Assembly (NCBI GenBank): GCA_021789495.1
Contig: JAJYJM010000023.1
Coordinates: 1 to 35,040 of the forward strand
Reading direction: 5' to 3'
DNA: 35,040 nucleotides
From: Nitrospirota bacterium
Lineage (GTDB): Bacteria; Nitrospirota; JACRHJ01
Numbering within the stretch: position 1 is the first letter of the stretch; each line of letters starts with the position of its first letter. Position numbers and translations under genes: made by a program. This document shows positions 8,997 to 32,357 of the stretch, piece by piece. Below the pieces are notes generated by a model. That model had not been told where the DNA came from and searched no databases. It saw only the letters and a list, made by a program, of their open reading frames with translations.

Positions 8997-9485
8997 TCAA
9001 GAGTTTTTTGGTTTCCGCACGAAATGCCCGGAGCGCCCGCCGGACTTCTCCAGCAGGTGTATGTCCGTAATCTCCATGCCGCGGTCTATCGATTTGCACA
9101 TGTCGTATATAGTGAGCGCCGCGACTGCTGCCGCCGTCAAGGCCTCCATCTCGACCCCCGTCCTGGCCGTAACCTTTGCCTCAGCCCGAATCTTGACCGA
9201 ATGCGCCTTTTCGTCCAGAATAAAGTCCATAGATACCTTCTCAAGCGGGAGCGGATGGCAGAGCGGAATAAGCCCGGAGGTTTTCTTCGCGGCCATGATG
9301 CCTGCCAGACGCGCGACTTCAAGGACGTCGCCCTTGGCGGCCTTTTTGCCCTTTATGAGTTTAAACGTCTCCGGCGCCATCAACACCCTGCCCTCGGCGA
9401 CGGCTATGCGCTCCGTTACGTCCTTCCCGGATACGTCCACCATCCTGGACGCGCCTTTTTCGTCGAAATGGGTAAGATTTGACAT
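8997..9485 (-). CDS. moaC: Cyclic pyranopterin monophosphate synthase MoaC
   Basis: MoaC converts the MoaA product 3',8-cyclo-7,8-dihydro-GTP into cyclic pyranopterin monophosphate in molybdenum-cofactor synthesis. The 162-residue protein shows the family blocks [42 protein letters not shown] and [15 protein letters not shown], which carry the active-site Lys, His and Asp residues. The length is standard. It starts 7 nt downstream of the moaA stop on the same strand, so the two are cotranscribed and act in sequence. Other Mo-cofactor genes must lie elsewhere. Confidence 0.97.
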
Positions 9486-9492
9486 TTTAAAA

Positions 9493-10494
9493 TTATCCCC
9501 CGATTTTGCTCATGGAGCGGCGGTATTTGTCCTTTATGCCGCCCGCGATGGAATGACCTTCGGGTTTTACGGCGAGGGCCAGGGATATAAGCCTCGACAG
9601 TTCCGCGTCGCCGCACCCGGACCGAAGCGGCGTTTTTATATCTATCTCCGTCTCAGAGAAAAGGCATGGTCTGAGCTTGCCGTCCGCCGTCAATCTCAAC
9701 CTGTTGCAGCTTCCGCAGAAGTGGTTTGAGAGCGCGCTTATAAAGCCAAGAATCCCCTTTGCGCCGGGCAGCCTGTATAGTTTAGCCGGGCCGCCGGCCT
9801 TCGTTTTTTGCCCTCCCGGGCCGCCTTGTTCTATTGGAATAAGCTCCCCCAGGGCGGAGATTTTGTCCCTTATTTTGTCCGCCGTGATTATCCTGCTGTC
9901 GTCCCAAGTGGCGATGCCGCCGACCGGCATGAACTCTATGAACCGGACGTGATAAGGCTTTGTAAGCGTAAGACGCGCAAACTCGCAGATTTCGCCGTCG
10001 TTTATGCCTTTTATCGCCACGACGTTTATCTTTATGGGGTCAAAACCCGCCTCCTCCGCCCGGCGTATACCCTCCAAAACGGCGCCCAGCTCCCCGCCCC
10101 TGGTGAGTTTTCGGAACCGCTCCGGGTTAAGCGAGTCAAGGCTTATGTTTATGCGCCTTAAGCCCGCCTCGTATAATCCTTCCGCCATCTTATCGAGCAG
10201 GGTGCCGTTGGTGGTGAGCGAGAGGTCGTCGATGCCGGGTATGGCGGCGATTTCCCGTATCAGACTCACCACGTCCTTCCGGACGAGCGGCTCTCCGCCG
10301 GTCAGGCGCACCTTGCGTATTCCCTTCTCCGCCGCCACCCGGACTACCCGCAGTATCTCCTCGTAGCGAAGTATCGCCTCGTGGGAGAGCCCCGGGACGC
10401 CCCCTTCCGGCATGCAATACACACAACGGAGGTTGCACCGGTCCGTAATGGAGACCCGGAGGTATTCTATATTCCTGTTTGCCCGATCCAGCAT
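9493..10494 (-). CDS. moaA: GTP 3',8-cyclase MoaA (radical SAM)
   Basis: MoaA performs the first step of molybdenum-cofactor synthesis, cyclising GTP by radical chemistry. The 333-residue protein has the radical-SAM cluster C20-x3-C24-x2-C27 ([15 protein letters not shown]), followed by [11 protein letters not shown] for SAM binding. The second, substrate-binding [4Fe-4S] cluster is supplied by C260, C263 and C277 ([10 protein letters not shown]...LRPCLF). The C-terminus ends in Gly-Gly, as MoaA requires. It leads a moaA-moaC unit and is divergent from the hydrogenase-like operon. Its predicted promoter puts the transcription start within a few bases of the ATG, and the Shine-Dalgarno is weak, so it may be nearly leaderless. 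Confidence 0.97.
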
Positions 10495-10572: not shown

Positions 10573-10619
10573 CCCGCCGACGTTTTTTGTTCTATGGGAA
10601 CCTAAGTATAGTCTTTGAG

Positions 10620-12593
10620 ATGGAAACGGACCGTCCGGAAACAGCTTCGTCCAAAACCACCGGAAAGATTTCCAGCGCCTGCTATCTCCTGTATGCAGCC
10701 GGATGCCTGATTCCGGGGCTTCTCGCCCTTCGGGACCTGCTCTTCGGCTATTCCTGGCATGTCTCCCTGCCGCTCTCCGGCGGCCTGGCTTTAAGCTTCG
10801 GGGGCGGCGGACTTTCGGCATATTTTGTCGTCATACTCTCGCTGCTCGTTTTTTGCGTATCCATATATTCGGCTGGATACGCAAGGCATTCCAGCGCGCC
10901 CTGGTCAGCGCTTATCCTCTACGGGATTTTCGTCTCCTCCATGTATGCCGTGTTCTACTCGGCTAATATCCCGGCGTTTCTTATCTTTTGGGAGACAATG
11001 TCTCTCTCGTCGTATTTTCTCGTCGTCTCGGATACGGAAAATATTGAAGCTTCGCGCGCCGGACTTCTATATGGCGTGATGACACATGTCGGCACGGCGT
11101 TTATCATGGCCGCTTTCATGGTCATGTTCTTCGCCACGGGGTCGCTTGAGTTCCCGATAATAAAGGCGGGGCTTGCGGGCGCGGGAGGGCTTCGCTCCGT
11201 CATATTCGTCCTTGCGCTTATAGGCTTTGGGACGAAGGCGGGCATCATCCCGCTTCATACATGGCTCCCAAGGGCGCACCCGGCGGCTCCGTCGAACGTC
11301 TCCGCGCTGATGTCCGGCGTGATGATAAAGTCGGGCATCTACGGGATACTGCTCGTCTCGCTCGATATTCTCGGCGGAGGGGCCGGCCTGCCGGCGCCGC
11401 TGTGGTGGGGCGTGGTAGTGCTCTCCGTGGGGGCGGTGTCCTCCGTAAAAGGGATTATGTATGCGTTGATGGAGCGCGACATGAAGAGGCTCCTGGCATA
11501 CAGCAGTGTCGAAAACGTCGGGATAATCCTGCTCGGCGTCGGCGCATCCATGATATTTTCTTTCAATAATCTTCCTTCGCTTGCCGGGCTTGCCCTCGCC
11601 GCCGCGCTGTATCACACGCTTAACCACGCGGTCTTCAAGGGACTTCTGTTCATGGGGGCGGGTTCAGCAGTCCACGCCACGGGCACTAAGAACATGGAGG
11701 AGATGGGCGGGCTTATAAAACGGATGCCCTGGACGGGTTTTTTCTTCCTTGTCGGCTCGGTCGCAATATGCGCGCTCCCGCCTTTCAACGGCTTCATGAG
11801 CGAATGGCTGACGTTTCAGTCCCTTATCATGGGGATAAAGACCTCCGTCGTCCTTACAAAGACCTTCATGCTCCTTGCCGGGGCCGCGCTGGCGCTCACC
11901 GGGGCGCTTGCGGCGTCGAGTTTTGTAAAGGCGTTCGGGATAAGCTTCCTGGGGGTTCCCAGAAGCCATGAGGCTGAGGCGGCGAAAGAAGCCCCTGCAA
12001 CCATGCTCCTTGGGATGGGTATTTTGTCTGCTGTGTGTCTCCTGCTCGGAATATTTCCCGGATACATGCTGAGGCTTCTCTCCGGCATACCTCTGCCGGG
12101 CCTTGGGAGCCTTCCGCAGTTCGCTCCCGGCGGTCTCGCCGTTACGGGCGTCGCCTGCTCCGGCGTTCTGCCGATAGTTCTGCTCGGCGCGCTTCTTGCC
12201 GGGGCCGCATTTATTTTTATTTTTCCGCTTGTCGCCGGGGGCAGGAGGAAGTCCATATGCGCCGACCCGTGGGACTGCGGCATTCGAAAACTTACGCCAA
12301 GGATGCAGTATACGGCGACCGCGTTTACTCATCCGCTTCGCCGGATATTCAAGAAAATATACAAGCCCAGGAAGGAAGTGCGGATAGAGTATATTGTGAA
12401 GCCGTTTTTCACCCGTGAGATAGAATACCGCTCCGAGATTACGCCGCTTGCCGAATCCTATTTCTACAGGCCGCTTGTCCGCGCGCTCCACAACGTTGCG
12501 CATTCGGCAAAGAGGCTCCAATCGGGCAATCTACAGCTTTATCTGGGATACATTCTGGGGACTCTTGTAATCCTGCTGGTGGTCTGGGGGTAG
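10620..12593 (+). CDS. hyfB: HyfB-like proton-translocating antiporter subunit of an Ehr-type complex
   Basis: This is a multi-pass subunit of the NuoL/MrpA antiporter family, of the type found as HyfB/HycC in hydrogenase-4 and related complexes. From the ATG at 10620 it has 657 residues. The family's charged membrane residues are present: Glu125 in FWETMSLSSY and Lys206 with His213 in GFGTKAGIIPLHTWLP. The C-terminal part has the HyfB-type sequence DPWDCGIRKLTPRMQYTATA, followed by a final helix. A TTG at 10587 would add 11 residues but lies only 8 nt from the predicted transcription start, so ATG is preferred although its ribosome site is weak. It is the first gene of six; one base separates its stop from hyfC. 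The partner subunits suggest it pumps ions without hydrogenase activity. Confidence 0.9.
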   Translation: METDRPETASSKTTGKISSACYLLYAAGCLIPGLLALRDLLFGYSWHVSLPLSGGLALSFGGGGLSAYFVVILSLLVFCVSIYSAGYARHSSAPWSALILYGIFVSSMYAVFYSANIPAFLIFWETMSLSSYFLVVSDTENIEASRAGLLYGVMTHVGTAFIMAAFMVMFFATGSLEFPIIKAGLAGAGGLRSVIFVLALIGFGTKAGIIPLHTWLPRAHPAAPSNVSALMSGVMIKSGIYGILLVSLDILGGGAGLPAPLWWGVVVLSVGAVSSVKGIMYALMERDMKRLLAYSSVENVGIILLGVGASMIFSFNNLPSLAGLALAAALYHTLNHAVFKGLLFMGAGSAVHATGTKNMEEMGGLIKRMPWTGFFFLVGSVAICALPPFNGFMSEWLTFQSLIMGIKTSVVLTKTFMLLAGAALALTGALAASSFVKAFGISFLGVPRSHEAEAAKEAPATMLLGMGILSAVCLLLGIFPGYMLRLLSGIPLPGLGSLPQFAPGGLAVTGVACSGVLPIVLLGALLAGAAFIFIFPLVAGGRRKSICADPWDCGIRKLTPRMQYTATAFTHPLRRIFKKIYKPRKEVRIEYIVKPFFTREIEYRSEITPLAESYFYRPLVRALHNVAHSAKRLQSGNLQLYLGYILGTLVILLVVWG

Positions 12594-12594
12594 A

Positions 12595-13542
12595 ATGGAA
12601 AGCCTTCAGTTCATGCTGATACTGCTCCTCTCGCCGCTCGCGCAGGGGATAATAAAGAAGATAAAGGCCATGATGCAGGGGAGGCGAGGGACGCCCGTGC
12701 TCCAGCCGTATTATGACCTGGCAAGGCTTTTTAAAAAAGACATGGTGATTCCCCGCACCGTCTCGTGGATATTCCACGGCGCGCCCTATGTCGTGTTTGC
12801 GTCCGTGCTCGCGGCGTCAATGCTTGTGCCGGTTTTCTCCGCCGGCCGGTCTACCGGCCTCTGGGCGGGGGGCGGGGTTGGTTTTTCCGGGATTGGCGAT
12901 ATTATCGCCACAATTTATACCCTTGCGCTCGGCAGGTTCTTTTTGGCGCTCGGAGGGCTTGACGCGGGCACGGCGTTCGGCGGCGAGGGCTCGAGCCGCG
13001 AGATGACCGTGGCCATACTGGTGGAACCGAGCATGATGCTTGCCATATTCACTGCGGCGGTTGCGAGCGGTTCTACAAACCTTGGCGTAATAGCAAACTC
13101 CGGGAGTTTTTTCTTCTCGCCCGCGCACGTCCTGGCCCTGGCGGCGTTTTTTGTCGCAATTATTGCCGAGACGGGCAGGATTCCTGTGGATAATCCCGAT
13201 ACGCACCTTGAGCTTACGATGATTCACGAGGGGATGCTCCTTGAGTATTCCGGGAAATACCTGGCCATGATGGAATGGGCGCATTACATGAAACAGATGC
13301 TGCTCTTTACCCTGGCGGCGGACCTCTTTTTCCCTTACGGGATGGCAGGAGCAGGCGCCGGTTTCGGGATCGCGGCGGCGGCAGGCTTCTGGGCGGCAAA
13401 GATGCTGATATTGTGCTTCGGGATGGCCCTCGCGGAGTCCACGAGGGCCAAGATGCGTTTTTTCCAGCTCCCGTCGCTTCTGGGCGCGGCGTTCGTTCTC
13501 TCGGCGCTTTCGATGATAACCTTTGTAATGACAGGAAAATAA
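12595..13542 (+). CDS. hyfC: HyfC-like (NuoH-family) membrane subunit
   Basis: This 315-residue subunit belongs to the NuoH/HyfC family, which joins the membrane arm to the peripheral arm of complex I-like enzymes. Family features are SPLAQGIIKKIKAMMQGRRG near the N-terminus, LQPYYDLARLFKKD at residues 36-49, and ETGRIPVDNPDTHLELTMIHE at 192-212, which carries the conserved acidic residues that face the quinone or cluster cavity in relatives. Several membrane helices follow. It begins one base after hyfB and ends one base before hyfE, so it is translated in the same unit. Group 4 hydrogenases and Ehr complexes both have this subunit; it does not by itself tell which this is. Confidence 0.92.
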   Translation: MESLQFMLILLLSPLAQGIIKKIKAMMQGRRGTPVLQPYYDLARLFKKDMVIPRTVSWIFHGAPYVVFASVLAASMLVPVFSAGRSTGLWAGGGVGFSGIGDIIATIYTLALGRFFLALGGLDAGTAFGGEGSSREMTVAILVEPSMMLAIFTAAVASGSTNLGVIANSGSFFFSPAHVLALAAFFVAIIAETGRIPVDNPDTHLELTMIHEGMLLEYSGKYLAMMEWAHYMKQMLLFTLAADLFFPYGMAGAGAGFGIAAAAGFWAAKMLILCFGMALAESTRAKMRFFQLPSLLGAAFVLSALSMITFVMTGK

Positions 13543-13543
13543 A

Positions 13544-14206
13544 ATGCCGAAAGCGTGGGTGGTCGTCTATTCCATAACGGATTTCATAACCGTCGGTATG
13601 CTGCTTACGGTAGTGGCGATGAACTCGCTCAAGAGGATGGAGAGCTTCATTCGGGCGTATACCGTAAACTCGCTTCTGCTCGCCGCGCTAATGGCCGTAA
13701 GCGCGTTCTACCTGGACGCAGCGCATCTCTATATAGCCGCCGCCGTTACGCTCGCCTCGAAGGGCGTAGCCATACCGCTCCTCCTGAAAAAGGTCGTGCG
13801 AGAGCTCAAGATTACGCACGAAGTGGAGCCTAATATCAACACTCCGCTCGCGCTCGTAATATCGTCCGTTCTGGTGGTGATAGTCTACTCCTCGCTCTCG
13901 AAAGGTATTTTCATAGAAGGTTTCACGGAGAATACGCTCAAGGTCTCCATCTCCATAATCCTGATAAGCCTCTTTATTATGATAACGAGAAAGAAGGCCG
14001 TAACCCAGGTAATCGGGCTTCTGCTCATGGAGAACGGGCTTTTCCTGGCCGGGTTCTCTCTGACTTACGGGATGTCTACGATAATCGAACTCGGCGTCGT
14101 CTTCGACGTGCTGATGGGCGCGATAATACTCGGGGTTTTCTTAAGCCAGATAAAGAAGACGTTCATAGACCTGGACCTGGACAAACTGACGACCCTGAAG
14201 GGATAA
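13544..14206 (+). CDS. hyfE: HyfE-like (NuoK-related) membrane subunit
   Basis: This 220-residue membrane protein has the HyfE layout: an N-terminal extension of about three helices, then a NuoK/MrpC-like part with VTQVIGLLLMENGLFLAG near residues 148-165 that carries the conserved membrane Glu. The C-terminus DLDLDKLTTLKG matches the usual short polar end of HyfE proteins. It is packed between hyfC (one-base gap) and hyfF (one-base gap). In hydrogenase-4 and formate hydrogenlyase-2 it is part of the ion-translocating arm. Confidence 0.9.
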   Translation: MPKAWVVVYSITDFITVGMLLTVVAMNSLKRMESFIRAYTVNSLLLAALMAVSAFYLDAAHLYIAAAVTLASKGVAIPLLLKKVVRELKITHEVEPNINTPLALVISSVLVVIVYSSLSKGIFIEGFTENTLKVSISIILISLFIMITRKKAVTQVIGLLLMENGLFLAGFSLTYGMSTIIELGVVFDVLMGAIILGVFLSQIKKTFIDLDLDKLTTLKG

Positions 14207-14207
14207 C

Positions 14208-15755
14208 ATGCTTCTGCCCCTGATACTCATACCGCTCGCCGCCGCCCTCGTATGCCTGTTGATTGACAACAGGCGCGTCTATGAATACGCGACGGTATTG
14301 TCATGCGCCGCTATAAGCGCCGTCGCGCTTTTCATCGCCTGGAGTGCGCTGTCAGGCGGTATGACGACCCAGCCCGGCGGCGCGATATATGCCGACGCGC
14401 TCTCTGCGTTCATGATCGTCGTAATAACCCTGCTTTCCCTTGCAACGTCCGTATACTCCGTCGAATACATGGGGAGTGAGCTTGAGCATGGCCACATAGA
14501 CAAAAAGGCCCACCGCTACTACTACGTTTTGTATAACCTCTTCATCCTTACGATGCTCCTTGTCCCGATAGCCGACAACCTGGCCGTAATGTGGATGGCC
14601 GTAGAGGGAACTACGCTCGTTTCCGCGCTTCTGGTGGGGCTGTACCGGAAGCGCTCCTCCGTCGAGGCCGCGTGGAAGTATATCATCCTCTGCACAGTCG
14701 GTATAACGTTCGCCCTGCTCGGCACGTTTATATTCTATTACGCCTCTTCCGGGGCGTCCGGGGGCGGCAGAGGAGCCCTTGAATGGACTGCCCTTCTGGC
14801 GATGGCGCCCAGGCTTAACCCGGCCACTGTAAGGCTCGGTTTCATACTCGTCGTCGTGGGCTACGGCACGAAGGCGGGCCTGGCCCCCGTGCACAACTGG
14901 CTCCCGGACGCCCACAGCGAGGCCCCGACGCCGATTTCCGCGCTTCTATCCGGGATACTCCTTAACTGCGCGTTCTACGGGATACTCAGGTTCGCCGTTA
15001 TCGCAAGGGCGAGCCTCGGACATCCCTTTGTCCGGGACATGATGTTTCTGTTCGGCATATCCTCGGTTGTCGTGGCGTCGATATTCATGTTAATCCAGAG
15101 GAACGCGAAAAGACTCCTCGCATACAGCAGCATCGAGCACATGGGAATAATAGCCCTGTCGTTCGGCGTTGGCGGGCCGTTCGGGTTTTACGCGGCGCTT
15201 CTGCATATACTTAACCACGCAATCGGGAAGCCGCTCATGTTCTTCGTGACCGGGCGTATAAAGGGACGCTACGATACTGTCGAGTCCGAGCAGGTCGCGG
15301 GCGTTATGAAGACCATGCCGTTGGTCGGGGCGGTCGGTTTTGTGGGGATAATGGCCCTTGCGGGCGCTCCGCCGTTCGGCATGTTCATAAGCGAGTTCCT
15401 GATGCTGAAGGCCCTTGCGGCGGGCAGCCACTGGGTTGTCATGGGCGTTTTCCTGGCGGCGGGCGGGATGGTTTTCTACGGGCTTCTTAGGAGCTTCGGC
15501 GGGATGTTCCTGGGAGCGCCTATGTCGCCCGCGCCGGTCGGACAGTCCATGCCGGCACACTCCACGGCATCGGCCCGCATTCCGCTGCCGGTCGGCGCGG
15601 ACGTGAACCGCAGGCTCTCCGCTCGCCGCTTTCGCGGACTCTTATCCGGCATTGTAATGTTTATTATGGCCGGCGCGCTCCTTGTGCTCGGTCTGTATAT
15701 ACCCGGCCCGATGGACAGGCTTATAACCCTCTCCGCCGGGATAATAGGGAGATAA
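14208..15755 (+). CDS. hyfF: HyfF-like proton-translocating antiporter subunit
   Basis: This is the second antiporter-type subunit of the operon, 515 residues, of the NuoL/N/MrpD family. It keeps Glu133 in WMAVEGTTLVSA and Lys222 with His229 in GYGTKAGLAPVHNWLPDAHSEAP, the residues that form the proton path in complex I. A second conserved segment is AKRLLAYSSIEHMGI. A stretch at about residues 443-475 (SPAPVGQSMPAHSTASARIP) is polar and looks like an exposed loop before the last helix. It starts one base after hyfE. After it the operon has an 85-bp gap containing hairpins, the only sizeable gap among the six genes. Confidence 0.9.
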   Translation: MLLPLILIPLAAALVCLLIDNRRVYEYATVLSCAAISAVALFIAWSALSGGMTTQPGGAIYADALSAFMIVVITLLSLATSVYSVEYMGSELEHGHIDKKAHRYYYVLYNLFILTMLLVPIADNLAVMWMAVEGTTLVSALLVGLYRKRSSVEAAWKYIILCTVGITFALLGTFIFYYASSGASGGGRGALEWTALLAMAPRLNPATVRLGFILVVVGYGTKAGLAPVHNWLPDAHSEAPTPISALLSGILLNCAFYGILRFAVIARASLGHPFVRDMMFLFGISSVVVASIFMLIQRNAKRLLAYSSIEHMGIIALSFGVGGPFGFYAALLHILNHAIGKPLMFFVTGRIKGRYDTVESEQVAGVMKTMPLVGAVGFVGIMALAGAPPFGMFISEFLMLKALAAGSHWVVMGVFLAAGGMVFYGLLRSFGGMFLGAPMSPAPVGQSMPAHSTASARIPLPVGADVNRRLSARRFRGLLSGIVMFIMAGALLVLGLYIPGPMDRLITLSAGIIGR

Positions 15756-15757
15756 AA

Positions 15758-15816
15758 CGCCCTCTCCCAGGGCGCTAAAAGCGGCGCCCGTTCCCCTCTA
15801 CCGCAGGTGGAGAGGG
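15758..15816 (+). repeat. Hairpin-rich intercistronic gap between hyfF and hyfG
   Basis: Three stems are visible: CGCCCT/AGGGCG (15758-15774), GGCGC/GCGCC (15771-15788, an alternative pairing to the first) and CCCTCT...AGAGGG with inner ACC/GGT (15794-15816). The CCCTCT/AGAGGG text resembles a dispersed intergenic repeat. The gap is the break between the membrane-arm and peripheral-arm genes, so it might set their relative expression. Confidence 0.5.
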
Positions 15817-15840
15817 TTATAGCGAAAAAGGGGTTAATTT

Positions 15841-17358
15841 TTGTATCCTGAAAACGAAAACTACATAGAGGTCTCGCCCGCAGACTTCCCCCGGAAGTGC
15901 GCGGAATACTCCCGCAGGCATTTCCTGCGCATGATATTTGCCGCGGACGAACGCGAGCTGGACGGACACTTCCGGGTGTATGCCGTGTTCTCGCCTATGG
16001 GAGAGGACCGCTTCGACATCCTGACGATGAAGCTCGGGGAGGATAATCTTTCCTATGAGAGCATAACGCCGCTTGTCCCCGCCGCGCATTGGTACGAGCG
16101 CGAGATGCGCGACATGTTCGGGATAATCCCGGAGGGGCACCCGGACGGAAGGCCGCTTTGTATGCACGGCATGTATGGAGGCGTCTATCCCCTGCGGCGG
16201 GACGTGTCAGCCGCCGACATAAAAAAGGCCGTTGATCTCTCTCGGGAGGACGGCTATTCCTTCATGCGCGTGAAGGGCGAAGGGGTGTACGAGATACCCG
16301 TCGGCCCCGTCCACGCGGGTATTATCGAGCCGGGGCATTTCCGTTTCAGCGCGGTGGGCGAGACGATATATCACCTTGACCCAAGGCTCTTCTTCACGCA
16401 CAAGGGCACGGAAAAATTATTCGAGTCGAGAGGCTTTATGGACGGCGTGGAGTTGTCCGAGAGGATATCCGGGGTGTCGTCGTTTTCCCACTCCTCGGCC
16501 TACTGCATGGCCGTGGAGCGCATGGCGGGTATGGAAATTTCCCCACGCGCAAAGGCTGTCAGGACGCTCGTAATCGAGATGGAGAGACTTTACAACCACA
16601 TCGGCGACATCGGGAACATGTGCGCCGGGACGGGTTTTGCCTTGGGATACGCCAAGGGGGCGCTCCTCAAGGAGTCTCTTATGGCCCTGAATGACAGGCT
16701 CACGGGCAGCAGATACTTAAGGGGGATAAACGTAACAGGAGGCGTTACGCGCGACGTGTTCGACGCCGCAGACGATATAATCTCCACGCTCGACGGCGTA
16801 AAGACCGGCTTCAAACATTTCATGGAATTCCTGCTGGACTCGGTCTCGCACATAGAGCGGCTGGAGGGCACGGGTCTTCTGTCCCGCGAGATTGCGCTAA
16901 AGATGGGCGCGACCGGCCCGGCGGCGAGGGCGTCGGGCATATCGGACGACATCAGGCGCGCCCACCCGCATCTCTCGTACGGGAGCCTTGTATTCGAGGC
17001 GCACACATACCAAAAGGGCGACGTATACTCCCGGATGATGGTGCGGCGGGAAGAGGTTGAATGCTCCTTTTCGATTATAGACTCGCTCATCGAGTGCCGT
17101 CACGAAGGAGAGCTTAGGATACCTGCCGGAAGATTCCCGGCGGGCGGGTCTGCGCTTGGGTATACGGAGGGGCCGCGGGGTTCGATTTTTTACTGGATAA
17201 AGGCCGCCGGGGACGGCAGTCCGCTCAGGGTAAAGGTCCGTTCCGCGTCGTTTTGCAACTGGCCGCTTATATCCTACGCCATACACGGGAATATCGTGCC
17301 GGACTTCCCCCTGGTGAACAAGAGCTTCAACCTCTCATACTCAGGCTGCGACTTATAG
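15841..17358 (+). CDS. hyfG: HyfG-like large subunit (NuoCD fusion) lacking all NiFe-binding cysteines
   Basis: This 505-residue protein fuses a NuoC-like domain (residues 1-120, with WYEREMRDMFGIIPEGHPDG at 84-103) to a NuoD/hydrogenase large-subunit domain (GPVHAGIIEPGHFRF onward). In active group 4 hydrogenases the text ERICGIC...H and DPCxSC holds nickel and iron. Here the first reads ERISGVSSFSH, with Ser210 and Ser213 in place of the cysteines. The C-terminus reads NLSYSGCDL, with Ser499 and Gly502 in place of the second pair. The remaining Cys503 is offset and is not a substitute. His217 is kept. The protein ends there, with no cleavable tail for HycI-type maturation. The start is TTG at 15841, the first possible start after an in-frame stop at 15835, with AAGGGG upstream. 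It is therefore not a hydrogenase by sequence; what it reacts with is unknown. Confidence 0.92.
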   Translation: MYPENENYIEVSPADFPRKCAEYSRRHFLRMIFAADERELDGHFRVYAVFSPMGEDRFDILTMKLGEDNLSYESITPLVPAAHWYEREMRDMFGIIPEGHPDGRPLCMHGMYGGVYPLRRDVSAADIKKAVDLSREDGYSFMRVKGEGVYEIPVGPVHAGIIEPGHFRFSAVGETIYHLDPRLFFTHKGTEKLFESRGFMDGVELSERISGVSSFSHSSAYCMAVERMAGMEISPRAKAVRTLVIEMERLYNHIGDIGNMCAGTGFALGYAKGALLKESLMALNDRLTGSRYLRGINVTGGVTRDVFDAADDIISTLDGVKTGFKHFMEFLLDSVSHIERLEGTGLLSREIALKMGATGPAARASGISDDIRRAHPHLSYGSLVFEAHTYQKGDVYSRMMVRREEVECSFSIIDSLIECRHEGELRIPAGRFPAGGSALGYTEGPRGSIFYWIKAAGDGSPLRVKVRSASFCNWPLISYAIHGNIVPDFPLVNKSFNLSYSGCDL

Positions 17359-17361
17359 GCT

Positions 17362-17889
17362 ATGCTCAGACAGATAATCTTAAACCTTTTCGGCAAGAAG
17401 CCTGCGATTGGCATGGACGCCATCCGGGCCATGGTGGGCGACGTTGCAGGCGAGCCGGGGGCCGGCGGCCCTGCGCGGCTGGACGCGGTATTCAAACGCT
17501 CGATTCGCATAAGGCAGGTGGACGCGGGCTCCTGCAACGCCTGCGAGTGGGAATGCACGGCGCTCGGAAACCCGATTTACGACGTCTCCCGTTTCGGGAT
17601 CGATTTCGTCGCCTCGCCAAGACATGCGGACGTTATTCTGGTTACGGGGCCTGTGTCGCTTGGCATGGCACAGGCGCTTAAGAAGACGTATCTCGCCATG
17701 CCGGAGCCGAAAATCGTTATCGCCTGCGGAGACTGCGCAAGGGACGGCGGCGTATACAGGGGGGCTTACGGCGTGCTGGACGGGGCGGCATCGGTTGTGC
17801 CGGTGGACGGATACATACCGGGATGCCCTCCAAGCCCGGCGGCAATCATGAAATGTATAATGGACATATTGGAATCAGCCGCAAAGTGA
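17362..17889 (+). CDS. hyfI: HyfI-like (NuoB-family) iron-sulfur subunit
   Basis: This 175-residue subunit belongs to the NuoB/hydrogenase small-subunit family and would hold the one cluster nearest the active site of the large subunit. The four expected ligands are Cys58 and Cys61 (GSCNACEWEC), Cys125 (CGDCARDGGVY) and Cys155 (PGCPPSP). Extra cysteines occur at 65, 122 and 165. The cluster site is therefore intact although the neighbouring large subunit has lost its metal site. The gene starts 3 nt after hyfG and is the last of the operon. Only 6 bp separate its stop from that of the convergent histidine kinase gene, leaving no room for a separate terminator. Confidence 0.92.
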   Translation: MLRQIILNLFGKKPAIGMDAIRAMVGDVAGEPGAGGPARLDAVFKRSIRIRQVDAGSCNACEWECTALGNPIYDVSRFGIDFVASPRHADVILVTGPVSLGMAQALKKTYLAMPEPKIVIACGDCARDGGVYRGAYGVLDGAASVVPVDGYIPGCPPSPAAIMKCIMDILESAAK

Positions 17890-17895
17890 AAGGTA

Positions 17896-19404
17896 TTACG
17901 CCGCCTCGCCTGCTTTCAGGTCTTCCGGGATAAACAGCCTGAACGTGCTGCCTTTGCCCTCAGCGCTTTCAAGCTCGACCCAGCCCTTGTGCGCCTCCGT
18001 TACGGCCTTGACAATTGCAAGCCCCAGGCCGGCGCCGGCGGAGCGGGAACCTTTGGACATCCGGTAGTATTTCTGGAAGACCTTGGACTGCTCCGAAGCG
18101 GGTATGCCGGAGCCGGTGTCGCTTATGGATATGACCAGGAAATTCCTGCCGTCCTGAAAAGTCCTTTCCGCCTTCAGCCAAATGCGCCCTCCTTCAGGGG
18201 TATAGTTTAGGGCGTTCTGGAGCAGGTTCGAGACGGCGCGCTGTATAAGTCTCGCGTCCATGTATATTGCCGGAATGTCGGGGGCAAATTCCGCCTCAAG
18301 TGTCTGGGCTTTTCTGCCCGCCATATTTTTAAAATCAGTGATTACCCCTTTTAACGCCTCGCGCGCATTGACGACGGCAATATCCGGCGTAAGCCCCCCG
18401 GAATTCAGCCTGGAATGCACGAGGAAATCCTCCACAAGCCGTCGCAGCCTCTCGCCGCTTCTGAGGATTGCATCAGCCATCCCGGCGGTTTCGACGTCCG
18501 TGCCGGTTTTCATTATGGAGATGAGTTCGGCGTTGGCCAGTATGGTCGTCAGGGGGCTTTTGAAGTCGTGCGTTATCATCGCCAGGAAGTCCATCCTCTG
18601 CCGCTCCAGGAACCTCCTTTCGCTTACGTCGAGAGCCGTGCCTATAATGGCCGGCCTGCCCCGGTAGAGCGTGAAGGCGGCCTTGCCCTCGACCTCGATG
18701 GGCGTTCCGTCCTTCTCAAGCCATACGCCCCGGTATCCGAGACTTGAGTGCTGCCCGTTCAGGATGCTCTCTATTCCCTGCCTTGCCATCTCCCTCTGGT
18801 CGGGATGCACGCACTCCAGCATGTTATTCATCCCGGTCAGTTCGCCTACGGAATATCCCAGCATCTGCGCAAGCTCCGGGTTCACATACTGAAAACGAAT
18901 GTCCTGGATGAGGTATATCCCGATAAGGGCGTCCTCGGAAAGCGTTCTGAACTTGGCCTCGGACTCCTTGAGCGCGGCCTCGATTTTCTTGTTTTCGGTA
19001 ATGTCTCTGAGTATCCCGGTGAACATCCTCCTGCCGTCCACGCGCATCTCCGTAACGGCGAGGTCGAGCGGGAATTCGCTCCCGTCCTTTCGCAGCCCCT
19101 TCACTTCGCGGCCTATGCCTATGATTTTTTTACGGCCCGTGCGGAGATAATTGTTTATGTAGGCGTCGTGTTCGGAGCGATACGGCTCCGGCATGAGCAT
19201 TTTGACGTTCCTGCCTATGACTTCAGAACTCTCGTAGCCGAAGATTTTTTCGGCGGCGGGATTGAACTTTATGACGGTGCCGTCGGAGGTTATTGTTATA
19301 ATGCCGTCCAGGACGGCGTTTATGACGGCGCGGTTGACCTCGCTCTCGAAGACGGCTTCCGTCTCTCTTTCGGTCTTTTCCGCAGGAATTTCCGGCTTTT
19401 CCAT
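17896..19404 (-). CDS. PAS-PAS sensor histidine kinase with FixL-like first PAS domain
   Basis: This is a soluble 502-residue histidine kinase with no membrane segment. PAS1 (residues 25-140) closely resembles the FixL heme domain: LMPEPYRSEHDAY carries His79, and IIGIGREV carries Arg99 exactly 20 residues later, the spacing of the heme ligand and oxygen-sensing Arg in FixL. PAS2 covers about 150-265. The HisKA domain has the phosphoacceptor His279 (ITHDFKSPLTTI). The ATPase domain has the N box (Asn397 in NLLQNALNY), G1 DTGSGIP (429-435) and G2 GAGLGLAI (457-464). No response regulator gene is adjacent. It is convergent with the hydrogenase-like operon. Many PAS domains keep part of this text without heme, so oxygen sensing is a hypothesis. 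Confidence 0.9.
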   Translation of the reverse strand: MEKPEIPAEKTERETEAVFESEVNRAVINAVLDGIITITSDGTVIKFNPAAEKIFGYESSEVIGRNVKMLMPEPYRSEHDAYINNYLRTGRKKIIGIGREVKGLRKDGSEFPLDLAVTEMRVDGRRMFTGILRDITENKKIEAALKESEAKFRTLSEDALIGIYLIQDIRFQYVNPELAQMLGYSVGELTGMNNMLECVHPDQREMARQGIESILNGQHSSLGYRGVWLEKDGTPIEVEGKAAFTLYRGRPAIIGTALDVSERRFLERQRMDFLAMITHDFKSPLTTILANAELISIMKTGTDVETAGMADAILRSGERLRRLVEDFLVHSRLNSGGLTPDIAVVNAREALKGVITDFKNMAGRKAQTLEAEFAPDIPAIYMDARLIQRAVSNLLQNALNYTPEGGRIWLKAERTFQDGRNFLVISISDTGSGIPASEQSKVFQKYYRMSKGSRSAGAGLGLAIVKAVTEAHKGWVELESAEGKGSTFRLFIPEDLKAGEAA

Positions 19405-19433
19405 ATTGCTCTCTTTAAGAATCCGCTTAGACC

Positions 19434-19442
19434 ATTATACCA
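19434..19442 (-). promoter_or_regulatory. Extended -10 promoter of the PAS-PAS kinase gene
   Basis: On the minus strand the sequence reads TGGTATAAT: a perfect -10 (19434-19439) with the TGn extension. There is no good -35 at normal spacing. Transcription would start about 23 nt before the ATG. Confidence 0.5.
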
Positions 19443-19516
19443 CGACTCCGGTTAAAAAAATCAATAGCTGTTTGGAGTTATCATATATCCTCAAGGGCGG
19501 CGAAACAGTATGCACA

Positions 19517-19553
19517 TCAATTAATTCTCTTTAATAATCAAAATGTTAATTGA
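19517..19553. promoter_or_regulatory. Inverted repeat upstream of the small membrane gene
   Basis: TCAATTAA (19517-19524) and TTAATTGA (19546-19553) are perfect inverted copies with centres 29 bp apart. The right copy overlaps the -35 box at 19550-19555. This is a plausible paired operator, but the region is AT-rich and chance is not excluded. Confidence 0.35.
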
Positions 19554-19579
19554 CAATCACGAGGGAGAGCCGTTAACCT
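19550..19579 (+). promoter_or_regulatory. Putative promoter of the small membrane gene pair
   Basis: A perfect TTGACA (19550-19555) is followed after 18 bp by TAACCT (19574-19579), a poor -10. The gene downstream has an excellent ribosome site, AAAGGAGG at 19596-19603. Confidence 0.35.
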
Positions 19580-19609
19580 TAAACCGAAGAAAAAGAAAGG
19601 AGGCATATC

Positions 19610-19906
19610 ATGCACGCCTTGTTTTATTCTTTAAACGCCGCCGCACTGTGCGCCATTCTTATCGCATGGTATAAAATCACCGCATTCAGGAGAAGGATAC
19701 CGGGCGGACTTGTAAAGACCGCGTGTAATATCCTTGGCGAATTTGTCGGCCTTTTTGCGTTCGGCTTTCTCGCTTTAATGTCCTTCCCGTATCTCCCCCG
19801 CGAATACCGGGAGGTGCTCATCAGCCTTGTCTTTATCAGCGGCGCGGTGTTTTCGATTGCCATTATCAACTTCTTCAGCAGACTTGCGGACGACTCCGGT
19901 TTTTAA
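19610..19906 (+). CDS. Small membrane protein of unknown function
   Basis: I do not recognise this 98-residue protein. It has three predicted membrane helices, near residues 3-22 (ALFYSLNAAALCAILIAWY), 42-62 (LGEFVGLFAFGFLALMSF) and 69-90 (VLISLVFISGAVFSIAIINF), with a basic loop KITAFRRRIPGG after the first. AAAGGAGG lies 6 nt before the ATG, the strongest ribosome site in the window, so it is very likely translated. The next gene begins one base after its stop, so the two form a unit. It is divergent from the PAS-PAS kinase. Confidence 0.75.
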   Translation: MHALFYSLNAAALCAILIAWYKITAFRRRIPGGLVKTACNILGEFVGLFAFGFLALMSFPYLPREYREVLISLVFISGAVFSIAIINFFSRLADDSGF

Positions 19907-19907
19907 A

Positions 19908-20132
19908 ATGGACAGGGGAGATGCGCTCAAGAAAATAACGTGGGACATCCTGGGGAAGCGTCCGGGCAGGGGTTTTTATATAAAGGCCGACCGCATGATA
20001 GACGACGCGGCATGGTCCAATCCGTCGCTCTTGTCTGCGGCGAGGGAAATAGAGAAAATAGTCCGACTTTTTGTAGGGATAGAATGCGCCGACATGCTCC
20101 AGAAAAGGTACAGGGAGTTTTTCAAGGGTTGA
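19908..20132 (+). CDS. Small soluble protein of unknown function
   Basis: This 74-residue protein starts at ATG 19908, one base after the stop of the small membrane gene, and is read in a different frame. It begins MDRGDALKKITWDILGKRPG and is basic and helical, with no membrane segment and no motif I recognise. A longer reading from 19827 would overlap the preceding gene by 80 bp and is not needed. Its last 11 bp overlap the end of the convergent P-type ATPase gene. The tight coupling suggests it works with the membrane protein before it. Confidence 0.6.
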   Translation: MDRGDALKKITWDILGKRPGRGFYIKADRMIDDAAWSNPSLLSAAREIEKIVRLFVGIECADMLQKRYREFFKG

Positions 20133-22623
20133 TTATCTTAAGGAGTTCAAACCAGGAAACACTTAAAGCCCCCGCTCCGGAGCAGATAAGTAAGTCGACG
20201 GGACTGAGTTTGTCGAAATTGAATGTTTCGCGCAGGAAAGGCAGGTATAACACAAACGCCAGAAAAACAACCGCCCCGGCAAGCACCCGCCAGAGCGCGG
20301 CATTTGGCCTGCGGAAGGTTGAAAAAACAGTCCTTGACCATGAGCGGTTTATCAGGATAAGGGCCAGGTTGGCTGTAATCAACGCAGTAAAGAACATGGC
20401 GCGTGCCTCGCCTTCGCTCCGGTGCGTTTTTATGGCGAAAAAGAATATCCCCAGAACGAAGATCAGCACGCTGACGCCCTGAAGAACGCTCATTGAAACC
20501 GTTTTAATCCCGAAAATGTTTTCGTTTCGGTTCCTTGGCGGGCGTTCCATGATGCCGCTTTCTTCCGGCTCCGCCTCGAAGACAACGGAACATGCCGGGT
20601 CGATTATCATCTCGAGGAATAGTATGTGCACGGGTAAAAGCGCTGCCGGCCATTTCAGGAGCACGGGAATCAGGGCCATGCCCGCAATCGGCATATGTAT
20701 GGCAAAGGTATAGGAGACGGCTTTTTTTATGTTGTCGAATATCCGGCGGCCCATCCTTACGGCCTTCACAATCGAAGAAAAATCATCATCGAGCAGGACA
20801 AGGTCGGCAGACTCGCGCGCCACGTCGGTGCCCCGCTCCCCCATGGCGATTCCGATATGGGCTGATTTCAAGGCGGGCGCATCGTTTACCCCGTCGCCGG
20901 TCATGGCGACAATCTCTCCGTTGCCCTTCAGCGCGTTTACCAATCTCAGCTTCTGCTCCGGTACGACCCTTGCGAATATGTCCGCCGATTTTATATGCTC
21001 TCGAAGCTCGTCGTCGTTCATTTTATCGAGCCCCGGCCCCGCTATTACATCCAGGCGCTCAAAGCCGACTTCCCTCGCGACATTACGGGCAGTGCCGGGA
21101 TAATCTCCGGTAATCATAATAACCCGTATGCCGGCTCTTCGGCAGTCCCTTACCGCGTCCGCAGCCATTGGCCGCACCGGGTCTGAAAGACCTATCAACC
21201 CTGTAAATTCAAATACGAAATCGTGCTGGCTGTCGGGCAGGACGTCCTGCCCGTAGAACGCTTTCGCTACGCCGATTACCCGAAGCCCCCCATCTGTCAT
21301 CCTGTTGATATTCGACGACAGTTCCGATATCTTTTCGCTGTCAAGGTGACACAGATCGGCTATCGCTTCCGGCGCTCCCTTCGCCGCTATAATATAACCA
21401 GGCTTGCTTCCGGGTTTCCATGCGCGCGACACGGAAAGCAGGCTTCCGGACAGGGGATATTCCCGAACCAGCGTCCAGTCAACGTGCATACGCGCAGATT
21501 CCTTCTCTCCAAGCTGCCTTATGGACACCTCCATCGGGTCGAAAGGGTCTGTTTGGCTGGCAAGGATGCCAAACTCCACAAGTTCGTGGAATTTTTCCGG
21601 GAGAGGCTCCGAAGGATTTATGGCATATATTTCCCTTCCGGCGCAAACCTCGCTTACGGTCATGCGGTTCTGCGTCAAAGTCCCGGTTTTGTCGACGCAT
21701 AGAACGGTGGCAGCACCGAGCATCTCGATTGCCTGAGTGCGCCTGGTAAGCACCCGGTTTCGTGAAATCCGCCAGGCGCCCAGGGCCAGGAACACGACAA
21801 GTATGACCGGAAGTTCCTCCGGCAGGATAGACATGGCAAGTGTTATGCCAGCGAGGATTCCGCCAAGCCAGTTCCCGCGCGTAAAGCCGTAACCGATTAT
21901 TACAACCGCGCACAAGGACAAGCCGCCTGCGGCGAGTATTTTAACTATCCTGGATGTCTGTTTCTGCAGAAGGGTGTCTTCTCCGTTTATCGATAGAAGC
22001 GACCTGCCTATCCTGCCAATTTCAGTCCGGATGCCAGTGGCCTTGACCTCGGCTATTCCCCGGCCCTGCACGACCAGCGTTCCTGAATATATGAACGGCA
22101 GGTCGTCCCCGCCCGGAGGGCCGATTTCCGCCGGACCATTGGCGCAGCTCTTGCGAGCCGGCGCAGACTCGCCCGTCAGCAACGATTCGTCTATATACAG
22201 GTTAAGGCACGAAAGAATAGTCGCGTCAGCCGGGACCCTGTCTCCCTCTTTCAGTACCAGCATGTCTCCCCGAACTACATTCCGGCCTGGGATACGCTTC
22301 TCGATTCCCTCTCGGATTACGATTGTGCGCGGGCTGGACATCTCTCGCAGGGCTTCGAGGGCGCGCTCTGTCTTCCGTTCCTGGTAAAAAGTTATTCCCA
22401 TCACCGCGAAAACAAACGTCAGAAGCATCAGCGCTTCCCTTACGTCTCCGATGATGAGGTAAAGGATGCCGCCTGCAATCAACAGCAGGAACATCGGTTC
22501 GCTTATTATCTTGAAGATGATAGACAGGATACTTCTGCGGCGCTCGGAAGGGAGTTCGTTATGGCCTTCTTCATACAGAATCCTGCTGGCCTGCGCCTCG
22601 GACAATCCCTGAATATTGTTCAT
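20122..22623 (-). CDS. P2-type cation-translocating ATPase
   Basis: This 833-residue pump of the SERCA/PMR1-like P2 class uses ATP to move a cation across the membrane. It has the N-terminal cation-ATPase domain (GLSEAQASRILYEEGHNELP), the actuator TGES (150-153), the phosphorylation site DKTGT (Asp311), KGAPEAI for nucleotide binding, and TGDGVNDAPALK for the hinge. The M4 text is ILPEELPVI (residues 266-274). In M6, where SERCA has N-x3-D, this protein has FLEMIIDP, so Glu replaces Asn. The M5 Glu of SERCA site I is replaced by a hydrophobic residue. Calcium is the default family guess, but the ion cannot be fixed. It starts 3 nt after the metallophosphoesterase stop, without a clear Shine-Dalgarno, so translation is probably coupled. 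Confidence 0.92.
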   Translation of the reverse strand: MNNIQGLSEAQASRILYEEGHNELPSERRRSILSIIFKIISEPMFLLLIAGGILYLIIGDVREALMLLTFVFAVMGITFYQERKTERALEALREMSSPRTIVIREGIEKRIPGRNVVRGDMLVLKEGDRVPADATILSCLNLYIDESLLTGESAPARKSCANGPAEIGPPGGDDLPFIYSGTLVVQGRGIAEVKATGIRTEIGRIGRSLLSINGEDTLLQKQTSRIVKILAAGGLSLCAVVIIGYGFTRGNWLGGILAGITLAMSILPEELPVILVVFLALGAWRISRNRVLTRRTQAIEMLGAATVLCVDKTGTLTQNRMTVSEVCAGREIYAINPSEPLPEKFHELVEFGILASQTDPFDPMEVSIRQLGEKESARMHVDWTLVREYPLSGSLLSVSRAWKPGSKPGYIIAAKGAPEAIADLCHLDSEKISELSSNINRMTDGGLRVIGVAKAFYGQDVLPDSQHDFVFEFTGLIGLSDPVRPMAADAVRDCRRAGIRVIMITGDYPGTARNVAREVGFERLDVIAGPGLDKMNDDELREHIKSADIFARVVPEQKLRLVNALKGNGEIVAMTGDGVNDAPALKSAHIGIAMGERGTDVARESADLVLLDDDFSSIVKAVRMGRRIFDNIKKAVSYTFAIHMPIAGMALIPVLLKWPAALLPVHILFLEMIIDPACSVVFEAEPEESGIMERPPRNRNENIFGIKTVSMSVLQGVSVLIFVLGIFFFAIKTHRSEGEARAMFFTALITANLALILINRSWSRTVFSTFRRPNAALWRVLAGAVVFLAFVLYLPFLRETFNFDKLSPVDLLICSGAGALSVSWFELLKIINP

Positions 22624-22626
22624 GTG

Positions 22627-23733
22627 TTAACGGAGTTTTATGTCAACGATTTCGGGCGTGTTACCAGTCCGCATGGGCGGGCCCCAGCCTCCGACGCCGT
22701 CCGTTACGTAGAGCGAATAGTCTCCCCAGGTGAAGAGGCCGTAGTCGCGGCCCTTGTATATCGCATGAGTTATGAAGTTCACCGGGAATATCTGGCCCTT
22801 GTGCGTATGGCCGCAAAGCTCAAGGTTTACGCCTGCCTCGCGGGCCTGGCCGATCATCACCGGGGCGTGATAGAGCAGTATCGTGGGCATCCCCGGCACG
22901 AAACCGGGCATGTTTTTTATTGTATTTAAAATGTTTTTGGTCTGTCCCCTTTTCGGGTAGCTGATTCCTATCAACTGAAGACCCCGGATGTCCTTAAGCG
23001 AGTCGTCGAGGATTGTTACTTTAGTCGTTTTAAGTATGGCATAGGCCTTCCTTACTCCAAGGTAAGTCTCGTGGTTCCCGGTCACGAAATAGACCCCGTC
23101 AGGCGCGTCAAGGTCGTTTAACGGGGCCACAAGGCCGGGCGAGGCGCCGTCCATGCCGTCGAAGAGGTCGCCTGTGATGACTACCATGTCCGGGTGCAGG
23201 TTATTCGCCATCGCTACGACTTTCCTTAAGTAGTTCTGCTTGTACATAAATCCCAGGTGAACGTCCGAGATCTGCACGATTGTCTTTCCCTTCCAGGCAT
23301 CGGGCAGGTTCCGGATATTTACCTGAATCTTCCGGACGCGCGGATGAAACGCGTTCCAGACGCCGTACACGGAATAGGCAAGGGCTATGAAAAGGAATAT
23401 GCCGCCGACTAGGGCGGTAGGGGTCTTATGGCCGACGGCGGAGAGAATCCATATTATAATCCATGCGGCGATAGAGGCCATCAGGAGGTTTATAAGCAGG
23501 CCGAGCCAGAAACCGGAGGCGGCATAATAGGCCCGCGTGAATATGTTTTCTTCCCGGCGGGCAAGAAACGTCGCAAAAATAAAACTCAGGGATAAAAATA
23601 TGAATATTGCGAGAGACCAATGCCTGCCTGCCGGGGAGGTTATACCGAAGAACTCGACGAACGAGTAATAGCAGAAATATGTAATGCCGAGGAGGACGGC
23701 AAGGGCGATGGATATGAAGAGGATAAAAGGCAT
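22627..23733 (-). CDS. Membrane-anchored metallophosphoesterase (YaeI/YkuE-like)
   Basis: This 368-residue protein has about four N-terminal membrane helices (residues 1-130) and then a calcineurin-like phosphoesterase domain. The metal-binding motifs are in order: ISDVHLG, GDLFDGMDG, GNHE, LLYHAP and CGHTHKGQ. In relatives this fold hydrolyses phosphoesters or phospholipid headgroups such as UDP-diacylglucosamine-type lipids; which one applies here is not known. It is immediately upstream of the P-type ATPase gene with a 3-nt gap, so the two are cotranscribed. A TATAAT box ends only 6 nt before the ATG, so the message may be leaderless. Confidence 0.88.
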   Translation of the reverse strand: MPFILFISIALAVLLGITYFCYYSFVEFFGITSPAGRHWSLAIFIFLSLSFIFATFLARREENIFTRAYYAASGFWLGLLINLLMASIAAWIIIWILSAVGHKTPTALVGGIFLFIALAYSVYGVWNAFHPRVRKIQVNIRNLPDAWKGKTIVQISDVHLGFMYKQNYLRKVVAMANNLHPDMVVITGDLFDGMDGASPGLVAPLNDLDAPDGVYFVTGNHETYLGVRKAYAILKTTKVTILDDSLKDIRGLQLIGISYPKRGQTKNILNTIKNMPGFVPGMPTILLYHAPVMIGQAREAGVNLELCGHTHKGQIFPVNFITHAIYKGRDYGLFTWGDYSLYVTDGVGGWGPPMRTGNTPEIVDIKLR

Positions 23734-23739
23734 GCCGGT

Positions 23740-23745
23740 ATTATA
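23740..23745 (-). promoter_or_regulatory. Possible -10 box of a leaderless metallophosphoesterase transcript
   Basis: A perfect TATAAT on the minus strand ends 6 nt before the ATG. No convincing -35 is seen. The region between 23734 and 23811 holds nothing else I can identify. Confidence 0.3.
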
Positions 23746-23811
23746 AAATAGTTGAGGACGGAATGTAATTCAATTTTACCGGATTAGCAGGGCTTAATAG
23801 AAATTCCCGCG

Positions 23812-26145: not shown

Positions 26146-26166
26146 AAATCACTCTCCTCAACATCA

Positions 26167-26172
26167 ATTATA
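26167..26172 (-). promoter_or_regulatory. -10 box of the REC-PAS kinase gene
   Basis: A perfect TATAAT on the minus strand lies 21 nt before the ATG at 26145, leaving a leader of about 15 nt that contains GAGGAG. The -35 region is not convincing. Confidence 0.45.
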
Positions 26173-26261
26173 TAACAAAAACGATGAGATAAATTACAAA
26201 GGCTAAAATTTTGTTTTGACAGTTGCGGGCGGACGGATTCCGGGCACTGAGGCGGGTATTT

Positions 26262-26474
26262 TTACTCCTCGGAATGTGTATAAGACAGGATCTTTTCTAT
26301 CCGCAGGACCTCTTTTTTCAGATACTCAAGGTATTCCGCGTCCTGCCTTGTCTGCCTGCCGGGTATGTGTGCGGAGGAGTGAAGGAGGTTAAAACTTAGT
26401 GTTTCCTCCATGTCCTCAAGGTCTTCTTTCAGGCGCTTCAGTTCGGCCTCCAGCGCGGTTCTGTCGGGTTCCAT
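26262..26474 (-). CDS. Small coiled-coil protein at the end of the efflux operon
   Basis: This 70-residue acidic protein starts 3 nt after the stop of the outer-membrane efflux gene, so it is part of that operon. Residues 5-30 (LEAELKRLKEDLEDMEETL) show strong heptad character, and a second helix (YLEYLKKEVLRIEKIL) follows a short linker with HIPGRQTRQDAE, suggesting a helical hairpin. There is no signal peptide, so it is cytoplasmic. I know no family for it. GGAGGGG lies rather far upstream. Confidence 0.65.
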   Translation of the reverse strand: MEPDRTALEAELKRLKEDLEDMEETLSFNLLHSSAHIPGRQTRQDAEYLEYLKKEVLRIEKILSYTHSEE

Positions 26475-26477
26475 TGT

Positions 26478-30800: not shown

Positions 30801-31090
30801 GCGTCGAAGGTGAGGGTGATGGTCGATGTCCCGGTGGAGTCGCTGGTGGAGGACATGTAGAGCAGGTGGTCTATGCCGTTCATCTTCTGCTCAATGACCT
30901 GGGTTACGGAGTCGTCCACGGTCTTGGCCGACGCGCCGGGATACACGGCGGTTACAGCTATCTGCGGAGGCGCGATGGGCGGATACTGCGCCACGGGAAG
31001 GATTTTTATAGCCAGAACTCCCGCAAGCATTATGATAATGGCTATGACCCAGGCGAATATCGGGCGGTCGATGAAAAATCTCGGTAACAT
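27884..31090 (-). CDS. RND multidrug efflux inner-membrane transporter (HAE1, AcrB/MexB-like)
   Basis: This 1068-residue proton-driven pump exports hydrophobic drugs, dyes or lipids from the periplasm and membrane. It opens with [20 protein letters not shown]. The proton-relay residues Asp408 and Asp409 lie in [16 protein letters not shown], and the matching Lys is in [15 protein letters not shown]. The first periplasmic domain shows [15 protein letters not shown] and [19 protein letters not shown], as in AcrB and MexB. That assigns it to the HAE1 group rather than to the heavy-metal HME group. The C-terminus is a short polar tail. It lies between its adaptor (11-nt gap) and the outer-membrane channel (4-nt overlap), forming a complete pump. 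Confidence 0.97.
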
Positions 31091-31100
31091 GGCAGCCTTT

Positions 31101-32270: not shown

Positions 32271-32357
32271 AAACACCTCACTCCGCAATAAACAACTCCA
32301 AAAACAGCGTCTCCGGACATGTTCCGGCGCCGCAAATCTTAACCCCGGCCCGCAAGA

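Follow-up and report, generated by a model that had tools for sequence, protein, structure and literature searches.

What does a hydrogenase-like ion pump do once its NiFe site has been erased? The question is raised by a 35,040-nucleotide stretch of DNA from a Nitrospirota bacterium (GenBank assembly GCA_021789495.1, contig JAJYJM010000023.1, positions 1 to 35,040; hereafter the 35 kb window), in which six genes in the order hyfB-C-E-F-G-I form an operon at 10620-17889. The original prediction, made from the sequence alone, took them for an energy-converting hydrogenase related (Ehr) complex that has lost the four metal-binding cysteines of its large subunit, carries no ferredoxin subunit and has been preserved by selection. 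Our sequence comparisons showed that the operon would encode a six-subunit complex derived from group 4 hydrogenases, with an intact ion path and the ligands for one [4Fe-4S] cluster. It is almost certainly an Ehr complex, on the strength of the erased NiFe ligands, the retained ion path and a large subunit whose place in the tree is among those of other Ehr complexes and away from HycE/HyfG and NuoD. As to its mechanism, we favour, at a probability of roughly 0.4, an ion-translocating oxidoreductase fed by a soluble ferredoxin, which would dock at the site of a lost ferredoxin domain.

The NiFe site and the ion path

When the large subunit (EhrL) was aligned with HycE of Escherichia coli, the NiFe ligands C241, C244, C531 and C534 fell exactly on S210, S213, S499 and G502, as predicted, and EhrL thus has none of the four cysteine ligands that a group 4 [NiFe] hydrogenase requires. 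The same substitutions were conserved in more than 30 loci of the clade to which the window belongs, of which 20 came from a protein search, belonging to Nitrospirota and anammox Planctomycetota, and the others from whole genomes, the exception being L014 with Asp at position 213. Because of this conservation, a sequencing error, which the original prediction had named as its weak point, is excluded.

The host is a bacterium related to nitrite oxidisers, with a Nitrospirota genome of 2.08 Mb that is 97% complete, in which the window is contig 16 and whose kin are Nitrospirae metagenome-assembled genomes. Within this genome we found no second NiFe large subunit, such as a separate group 4 hydrogenase would bring, and neither HypD nor HypC, extending to the whole genome the lack of maturation genes first noticed in the window. 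The absence of HypD is not a trait of the genus, since one sister genome of the same genus (G003) has it. Among 30 Nitrospirota genomes with a window-type Ehr, HypD was missing from eight, three of which are at least 97% complete (G000, G200 and G239), and seven single-contig genomes with the Nitrospira-type Ehr introduced below also lack it (G054, G140, G144, G148, G188, G209 and G246).

Might EhrL still make or use H2 with altered ligands? Its AlphaFold model (pLDDT, the predicted confidence, 85; low at residues 138-188 and in the last five) found its best PDB match in HycE of the formate hydrogenlyase (FHL; 7z0s_E, E 4e-40, template-modelling score 0.89). Among the HycE proton-path residues, defined in the FHL structure paper (PMC9474812), E193, H284, E437 and R478 are kept in EhrL as E163, H253, E405 and R446, so that both the fold and the second-shell residues match HycE. 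However, all four metal-binding cysteines are lost, the canopy residue D529 of HycE has become N497, and neither the host genome, without HypD and HypC, nor the seven single-contig genomes without HypD argue for a hydrogenase; we regard retained H2 chemistry as scarcely credible. The absence of a C-terminal extension was considered as a hallmark of Ehr and rejected, as a cysteine-bearing sister of Ehr, described below, likewise ends at CTDL.

The genes and sites of the operon are as follows.

10620..12593, + strand: hyfB-like antiporter subunit (Pfam PF00361, 2e-52; NCBIfam hydrogenase 4 subunit B, 667 bits)
12595..13542, + strand: hyfC/NuoH-like linker subunit with the E-channel (PF00146, 1e-44)
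13544..14206, + strand: hyfE-like membrane subunit (NCBIfam hydrogenase 4 membrane subunit, 1.5e-25, under the curated cut-off)
14208..15755, + strand: hyfF-like antiporter subunit with E133 and K222 (PF00361, 4e-55)
15841..17358, + strand: large subunit EhrL, HycE/HyfG-like, a NuoC+NuoD fusion (TTG start; without C-terminal extension)
16468..16479, + strand: codons of S210-S213, at HycE C241 and C244, the first NiFe CxxC (by alignment)
17335..17346, + strand: codons of S499-G502, at HycE C531 and C534, the second NiFe CxxC (by alignment)
17362..17889, + strand: small subunit EhrS, HyfI/NuoB-like, with the proximal [4Fe-4S] ligands C58, C61, C125 and C155 (PF01058, 1e-29)
17362..17523, + strand: N-terminal segment of EhrS, without cluster ligands, where relatives have a HycF/HyfH-type ferredoxin domain

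Searches with Pfam and NCBIfam assigned 30 kDa and 49 kDa/NiFeSe domains to EhrL, Oxidored_q6 to EhrS, NADHdh to the HyfC-like protein and Proton_antipo_M to the HyfB- and HyfF-like proteins, whose best matches were HyfB and HyfF. In BLAST comparisons with E. coli K-12 reference proteins taken from NC_000913, identities were 41% to HyfB, 37% to HyfC, 24% to HyfE and 42% to HyfF, while EhrL was 36% identical to HycE and 34% to HyfG, and EhrS 42% to HycG and 44% to HyfI. Open reading frames, domains and identities thus agreed on the six predicted genes. The hyfB-like frame is also open from a TTG at 10587, and E136/K217 in this longer numbering are the E125/K206 of the original prediction. The retention of these ion-path residues and of the cluster ligands was borne out across relatives: E136/K217 of HyfB, E133/K222 of HyfF and, over 70 sequences, C58, C61, C125 and C155 of EhrS were each more than 95% conserved, and the E-channel residues of the HyfC-like subunit (E136, E144, E192, E206, E212 and E217) were kept in almost every lineage.

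With its active site erased, the complex might be a decaying relic without function, and Geobacter Ehr has been called nonfunctional in one paper (PMC13194489). Yet all six frames are open, the ratio of nonsynonymous to synonymous substitution rates (dN/dS) is 0.04-0.17 in all six genes (Nei-Gojobori, against two close relatives), as expected from the predicted purifying selection, and the four substitutions have been conserved in many families of Nitrospirota. The selection data contradict a relic, which we consider very improbable.

Ehr clades and the fused ferredoxin domain

A profile search of 396 Nitrospirota genomes matched the Ehr large subunit in 224 at 1e-60, a threshold that lets through a few genuine group 4 hydrogenases as well; one of these (L116/L125, with RICGIC and DPCFSC) was the positive control. 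The Nitrospirota Ehr fell into three supported clades: T1, the Nitrospirota/anammox clade that holds the window; a separate clade T2, which often has an extra antiporter gene and for which "Nitrospira-type" is a working label resting partly on published Nitrospirales counts; and T3. All rows without the NiFe cysteines lay on one side of a branch, with support of 94/93 for the six concatenated subunits and 69/93 for EhrL alone, and Ehr together with its cysteine-bearing sister separated from all other sequences at 100/100.

The nearest cysteine-bearing large subunit to that of the window belongs to this sister, found in anammox-order Planctomycetota, where six-gene operons of the same order retain all four NiFe cysteines (L161-L164, L170, L171 and L174). 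Their HyfI carries an N-terminal ferredoxin domain with eight ligand cysteines for two clusters, according to Pfam. When long-branch rows were left out, the tree of six concatenated subunits placed the group as sister to all Ehr at 94/93, whereas a quicker concatenated tree including the long branches placed it inside Ehr. Convergent loss of the NiFe site is disfavoured by the more careful tree, and a single loss of the ligands, while not proven, is probably the better reading of these sequences. These operons may correspond to what was reported as a "group 4f hydrogenase" in Candidatus Jettenia (PMC6828613); the activity of the group is uncertain, because HypD is present in only 5 of its 10 genomes. 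Several hosts of the sister lack HypD, among them G433, a single 4.4 Mb contig.

In the 35 kb window, BLAST found no HyfA or HyfH homologue, HyfD merely cross-matching the hyfB and hyfF genes; neither the ferredoxin motif CxxCxxCxxxCP nor the NuoI-type ferredoxin motif occurs there, and NuoE, NuoF and NuoG are absent from its annotated genes. Genome-wide, HycF-like matches were led by two NuoI, the others being weaker and mostly partial. Another possible partner is a cytoplasmic formate dehydrogenase docking on Ehr. Such a complex has been proposed for Saganbacteria and Riflemargulisbacteria (PMC6349859), and Geobacter Ehr proteins increase on formate (PMC7894505); however, the window has no HycB/HyfA-type adaptor, and no formate dehydrogenase was found among the Pfam-scanned neighbours, the rest of the genome not having been searched for one. 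A formate link is improbable for the window Ehr.

A HycF-like domain was present at the N-terminus of EhrS in six other loci, with ligands for two clusters in L124 and for about one in L056, L127, L129, L016b and L021b. The first of these, in a genome of the window's own family (G013), is a distant Ehr type that stands in place of the window-type Ehr; an apparent 967-aa fusion of F and G at this locus was an artefact of an open frame, F lying in another frame. In T1, T2 and T3, EhrS has no ferredoxin domain. Nevertheless, none of 2402 decoys matched the EhrS N-terminus of T2 better than HycF did (E 5e-4); for that of T3, the best match was the fused L056 form, with HyfH next. For the window clade, T1, no significant HycF match was obtained (rank 457 of about 2400), and we put forward a HycF remnant for the two other clades only.

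From these comparisons we infer, as the preferred history, that the ferredoxin subunit fused to HyfI once, that the NiFe ligands disappeared once and that the ferredoxin domain was lost repeatedly. Loss is preferred because the sister has the fusion and T2 and T3 keep a HycF-like N-terminus; a single clade of all fused rows was rejected (p 0.001), and the domain was apparently lost more than once. When only the Ehr rows are considered, equal-weight parsimony favours gaining the fusion twice (2 changes) over losing it repeatedly. The statement that the complex has no ferredoxin subunit is true of the operon, but its emphasis changes, since the relatives indicate that this subunit was probably fused to HyfI as a domain and then lost, rather than never present.

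Redox coupling and the electron partner

The window-type operon is a self-contained six-gene unit. What lies beside it depends on the family and may be sigma-54 two-component genes, universal stress proteins, TauE or SulP; elsewhere it is lysine 2,3-aminomutase together with ATP-grasp and GNAT genes. Across many families we found no conserved partner gene next to it; two-component regulator genes recur most. In 5 of 14 loci, the T2 operon adjoins genes for 2-oxoacid:ferredoxin oxidoreductases, recognised from their CO_dh-family, PFOR_II and TPP/PFO_beta_C domains. The host genome encodes two 2-oxoacid:ferredoxin oxidoreductase gamma subunits and two separate complex I loci; on contig C6, about 10 kb separate a gamma gene from 14862 and the beginning of one complex I locus.

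In the window itself, a promoter scan gave no signal above chance. Divergent from the operon, moaA (Pfam) and a moaC-like open reading frame lie at 8997-10494 on the - strand, an upstream neighbourhood common to close relatives only, and 17896-32288 on the - strand holds a PAS histidine kinase, a P-type cation ATPase, a phosphoesterase, a hybrid kinase and an RND efflux operon. In one Nitrospirota family (L106-L109), genes for lysine 2,3-aminomutase, a D-Ala-ligase-like ATP-grasp protein and a GNAT protein come after the Ehr operon, an arrangement that resembles an osmolyte pathway.

We propose that the ancestor was a six-gene hydrogenase whose HyfH/HycF ferredoxin subunit was fused to HyfI; the NiFe ligands would have been lost, probably once, and the ferredoxin domain afterwards, apparently more than once. 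The electron partner of the present complex would be a soluble carrier of low potential, most likely free ferredoxin, docking on EhrS at the former place of the tethered domain and exchanging electrons with the single remaining [4Fe-4S] cluster. The former NiFe pocket would hold a small acceptor, most likely menaquinone or some other lipid-soluble carrier, to or from which electrons pass, and protonation of Glu163 would drive ion translocation via the HyfC E-channel and the antiporters HyfF and HyfB. In a possible reverse mode, the membrane potential would be used to reduce ferredoxin.

That the window Ehr is a redox-coupled ion pump of any kind is reasonably likely, because the proximal ligands are so highly conserved, the ion path and proton-path residues are kept and dN/dS is low. 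Soluble ferredoxin is a tentative choice of partner, favoured because T2 adjoins 2-oxoacid:ferredoxin oxidoreductases, the host genome has two of them and relatives carry a tethered ferredoxin domain. The predicted lack of a recognised electron donor holds for the operon and can be refined, in that the tethered domain of the relatives indicates what was lost.

Several points weigh against this ferredoxin-fed pump. In complex I, H224 and Y273 of NuoCD are the ligands of the quinone headgroup. EhrL has I162 and G211 in their place and, since the NiFe ligands are replaced as well, its pocket is no NiFe site and no quinone site of the standard kind either. The oxidoreductase neighbourhood belongs to T2 and is not found around the window operon. 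The donor, the acceptor and the direction of electron flow are all things that we infer. Moreover, some related lineages have lost ligands of the proximal cluster, and redox coupling therefore does not extend to the whole family. At L169 (8062-15644, genome G453), six Ehr genes with open frames have T/C/D/D at the proximal [4Fe-4S] ligands and neither NiFe ligands nor a ferredoxin domain, leaving no predicted redox cofactor in the complex. In three anammox-order genomes, a second six-gene operon lies in tandem directly downstream of the window-type operon (L016, 12508-19810; L021, 3581-11164; L167), and its EhrS has D/C/D/N at these positions in L016b and L167b, the two copies read residue by residue. 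Such an EhrS keeps a one-cluster ferredoxin domain and has lost three of the four proximal ligands, the reverse of the neighbouring operon. Elsewhere (L014, 12156-19523; L101; L009; L022), the window-type operon is directly followed by a second operon that belongs to T3 where readable.

These lineages bring in the main rival, a redox-free ion translocator such as an Mrp-like cation/proton antiporter or a device for pH or osmotic homeostasis, in which the cluster would be structural or regulatory. L169 and the tandem copies speak for it, as all key residues of HyfB and most of the E-channel, with nearly all HyfC residues, persist although proximal ligands are gone, and so do the stress-type neighbours that recur elsewhere (universal stress proteins, sigma-54 regulators, lysine 2,3-aminomutase with GNAT, MscS). 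However, those neighbours differ between families, L169 has K for E396 in HyfF, and the four proximal ligands are more than 95% conserved in the window clade and in most others. We consider a redox-free role less likely for the window complex and retain redox coupling as the favoured reading.

Across the Ehr family, the sequences indicate that redox centres are lost stepwise while the ion path largely stays. Whether Ehr is a redox pump being stripped of its centres, roughly from the NiFe site through the tethered ferredoxin clusters to the proximal cluster, with L169-type end members as redox-free translocators, seems doubtful to us; if true, a complex-I-type membrane arm could be driven or gated without electron transfer.

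Ehr among known complexes

Ehr itself is not new, and the window operon adds to an already known type. It has been described, with its reaction unknown, in Geobacter, Nitrospirales, Sulfobacillus and ammonia-oxidising archaea (PMC7894505, PMC12342949, PMC4378227, PMC10432482), occurs in about half of Nitrospirales genomes (PMC12342949), and is left out by a hydrogenase classifier as a non-hydrogenase. In the literature that we searched, whose coverage is incomplete, neither the HyfH-HyfI fusion series nor the proximal-cluster loss was described, and we claim no priority for them. The sister with its tethered ferredoxin, the two-, one- and no-cluster intermediates and the forms without the proximal cluster together offer a natural series in which the need of a complex-I-type pump for each redox centre can be tested.

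The window complex resembles Ehr of Geobacter sulfurreducens (GSU0739-0745) and others in a large subunit without NiFe cysteines and in HyfE-, NuoL- and NuoH-like subunits, Geobacter being likened by description only; the Complex I/Hyf-type membrane arm required of an Ehr is present in the same operon, with hyfB, C, E and F adjacent. The operon of the anammox-order Planctomycetota has the same gene order and differs by its four NiFe cysteines and the two-cluster ferredoxin domain on HyfI. With FHL and hydrogenases 3 and 4 of E. coli (Hyc, Hyf), the window Ehr has the fold, subunit homology and proton-path residues in common, but the E. coli enzymes have NiFe ligands as well as maturation genes, keep HycF/HyfH and HycB/HyfA as separate subunits and have a large subunit extended at its C-terminus, and the HycB/HycF-type ferredoxin subunits that FHL requires are missing from the window. 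Complex I likewise shares the membrane arm, the E-channel and the position of the NuoB cluster, and differs in its quinone ligands H224/Y273 (I162/G211 here) and in having NuoI and an NADH module, neither of which is in the Ehr operon.

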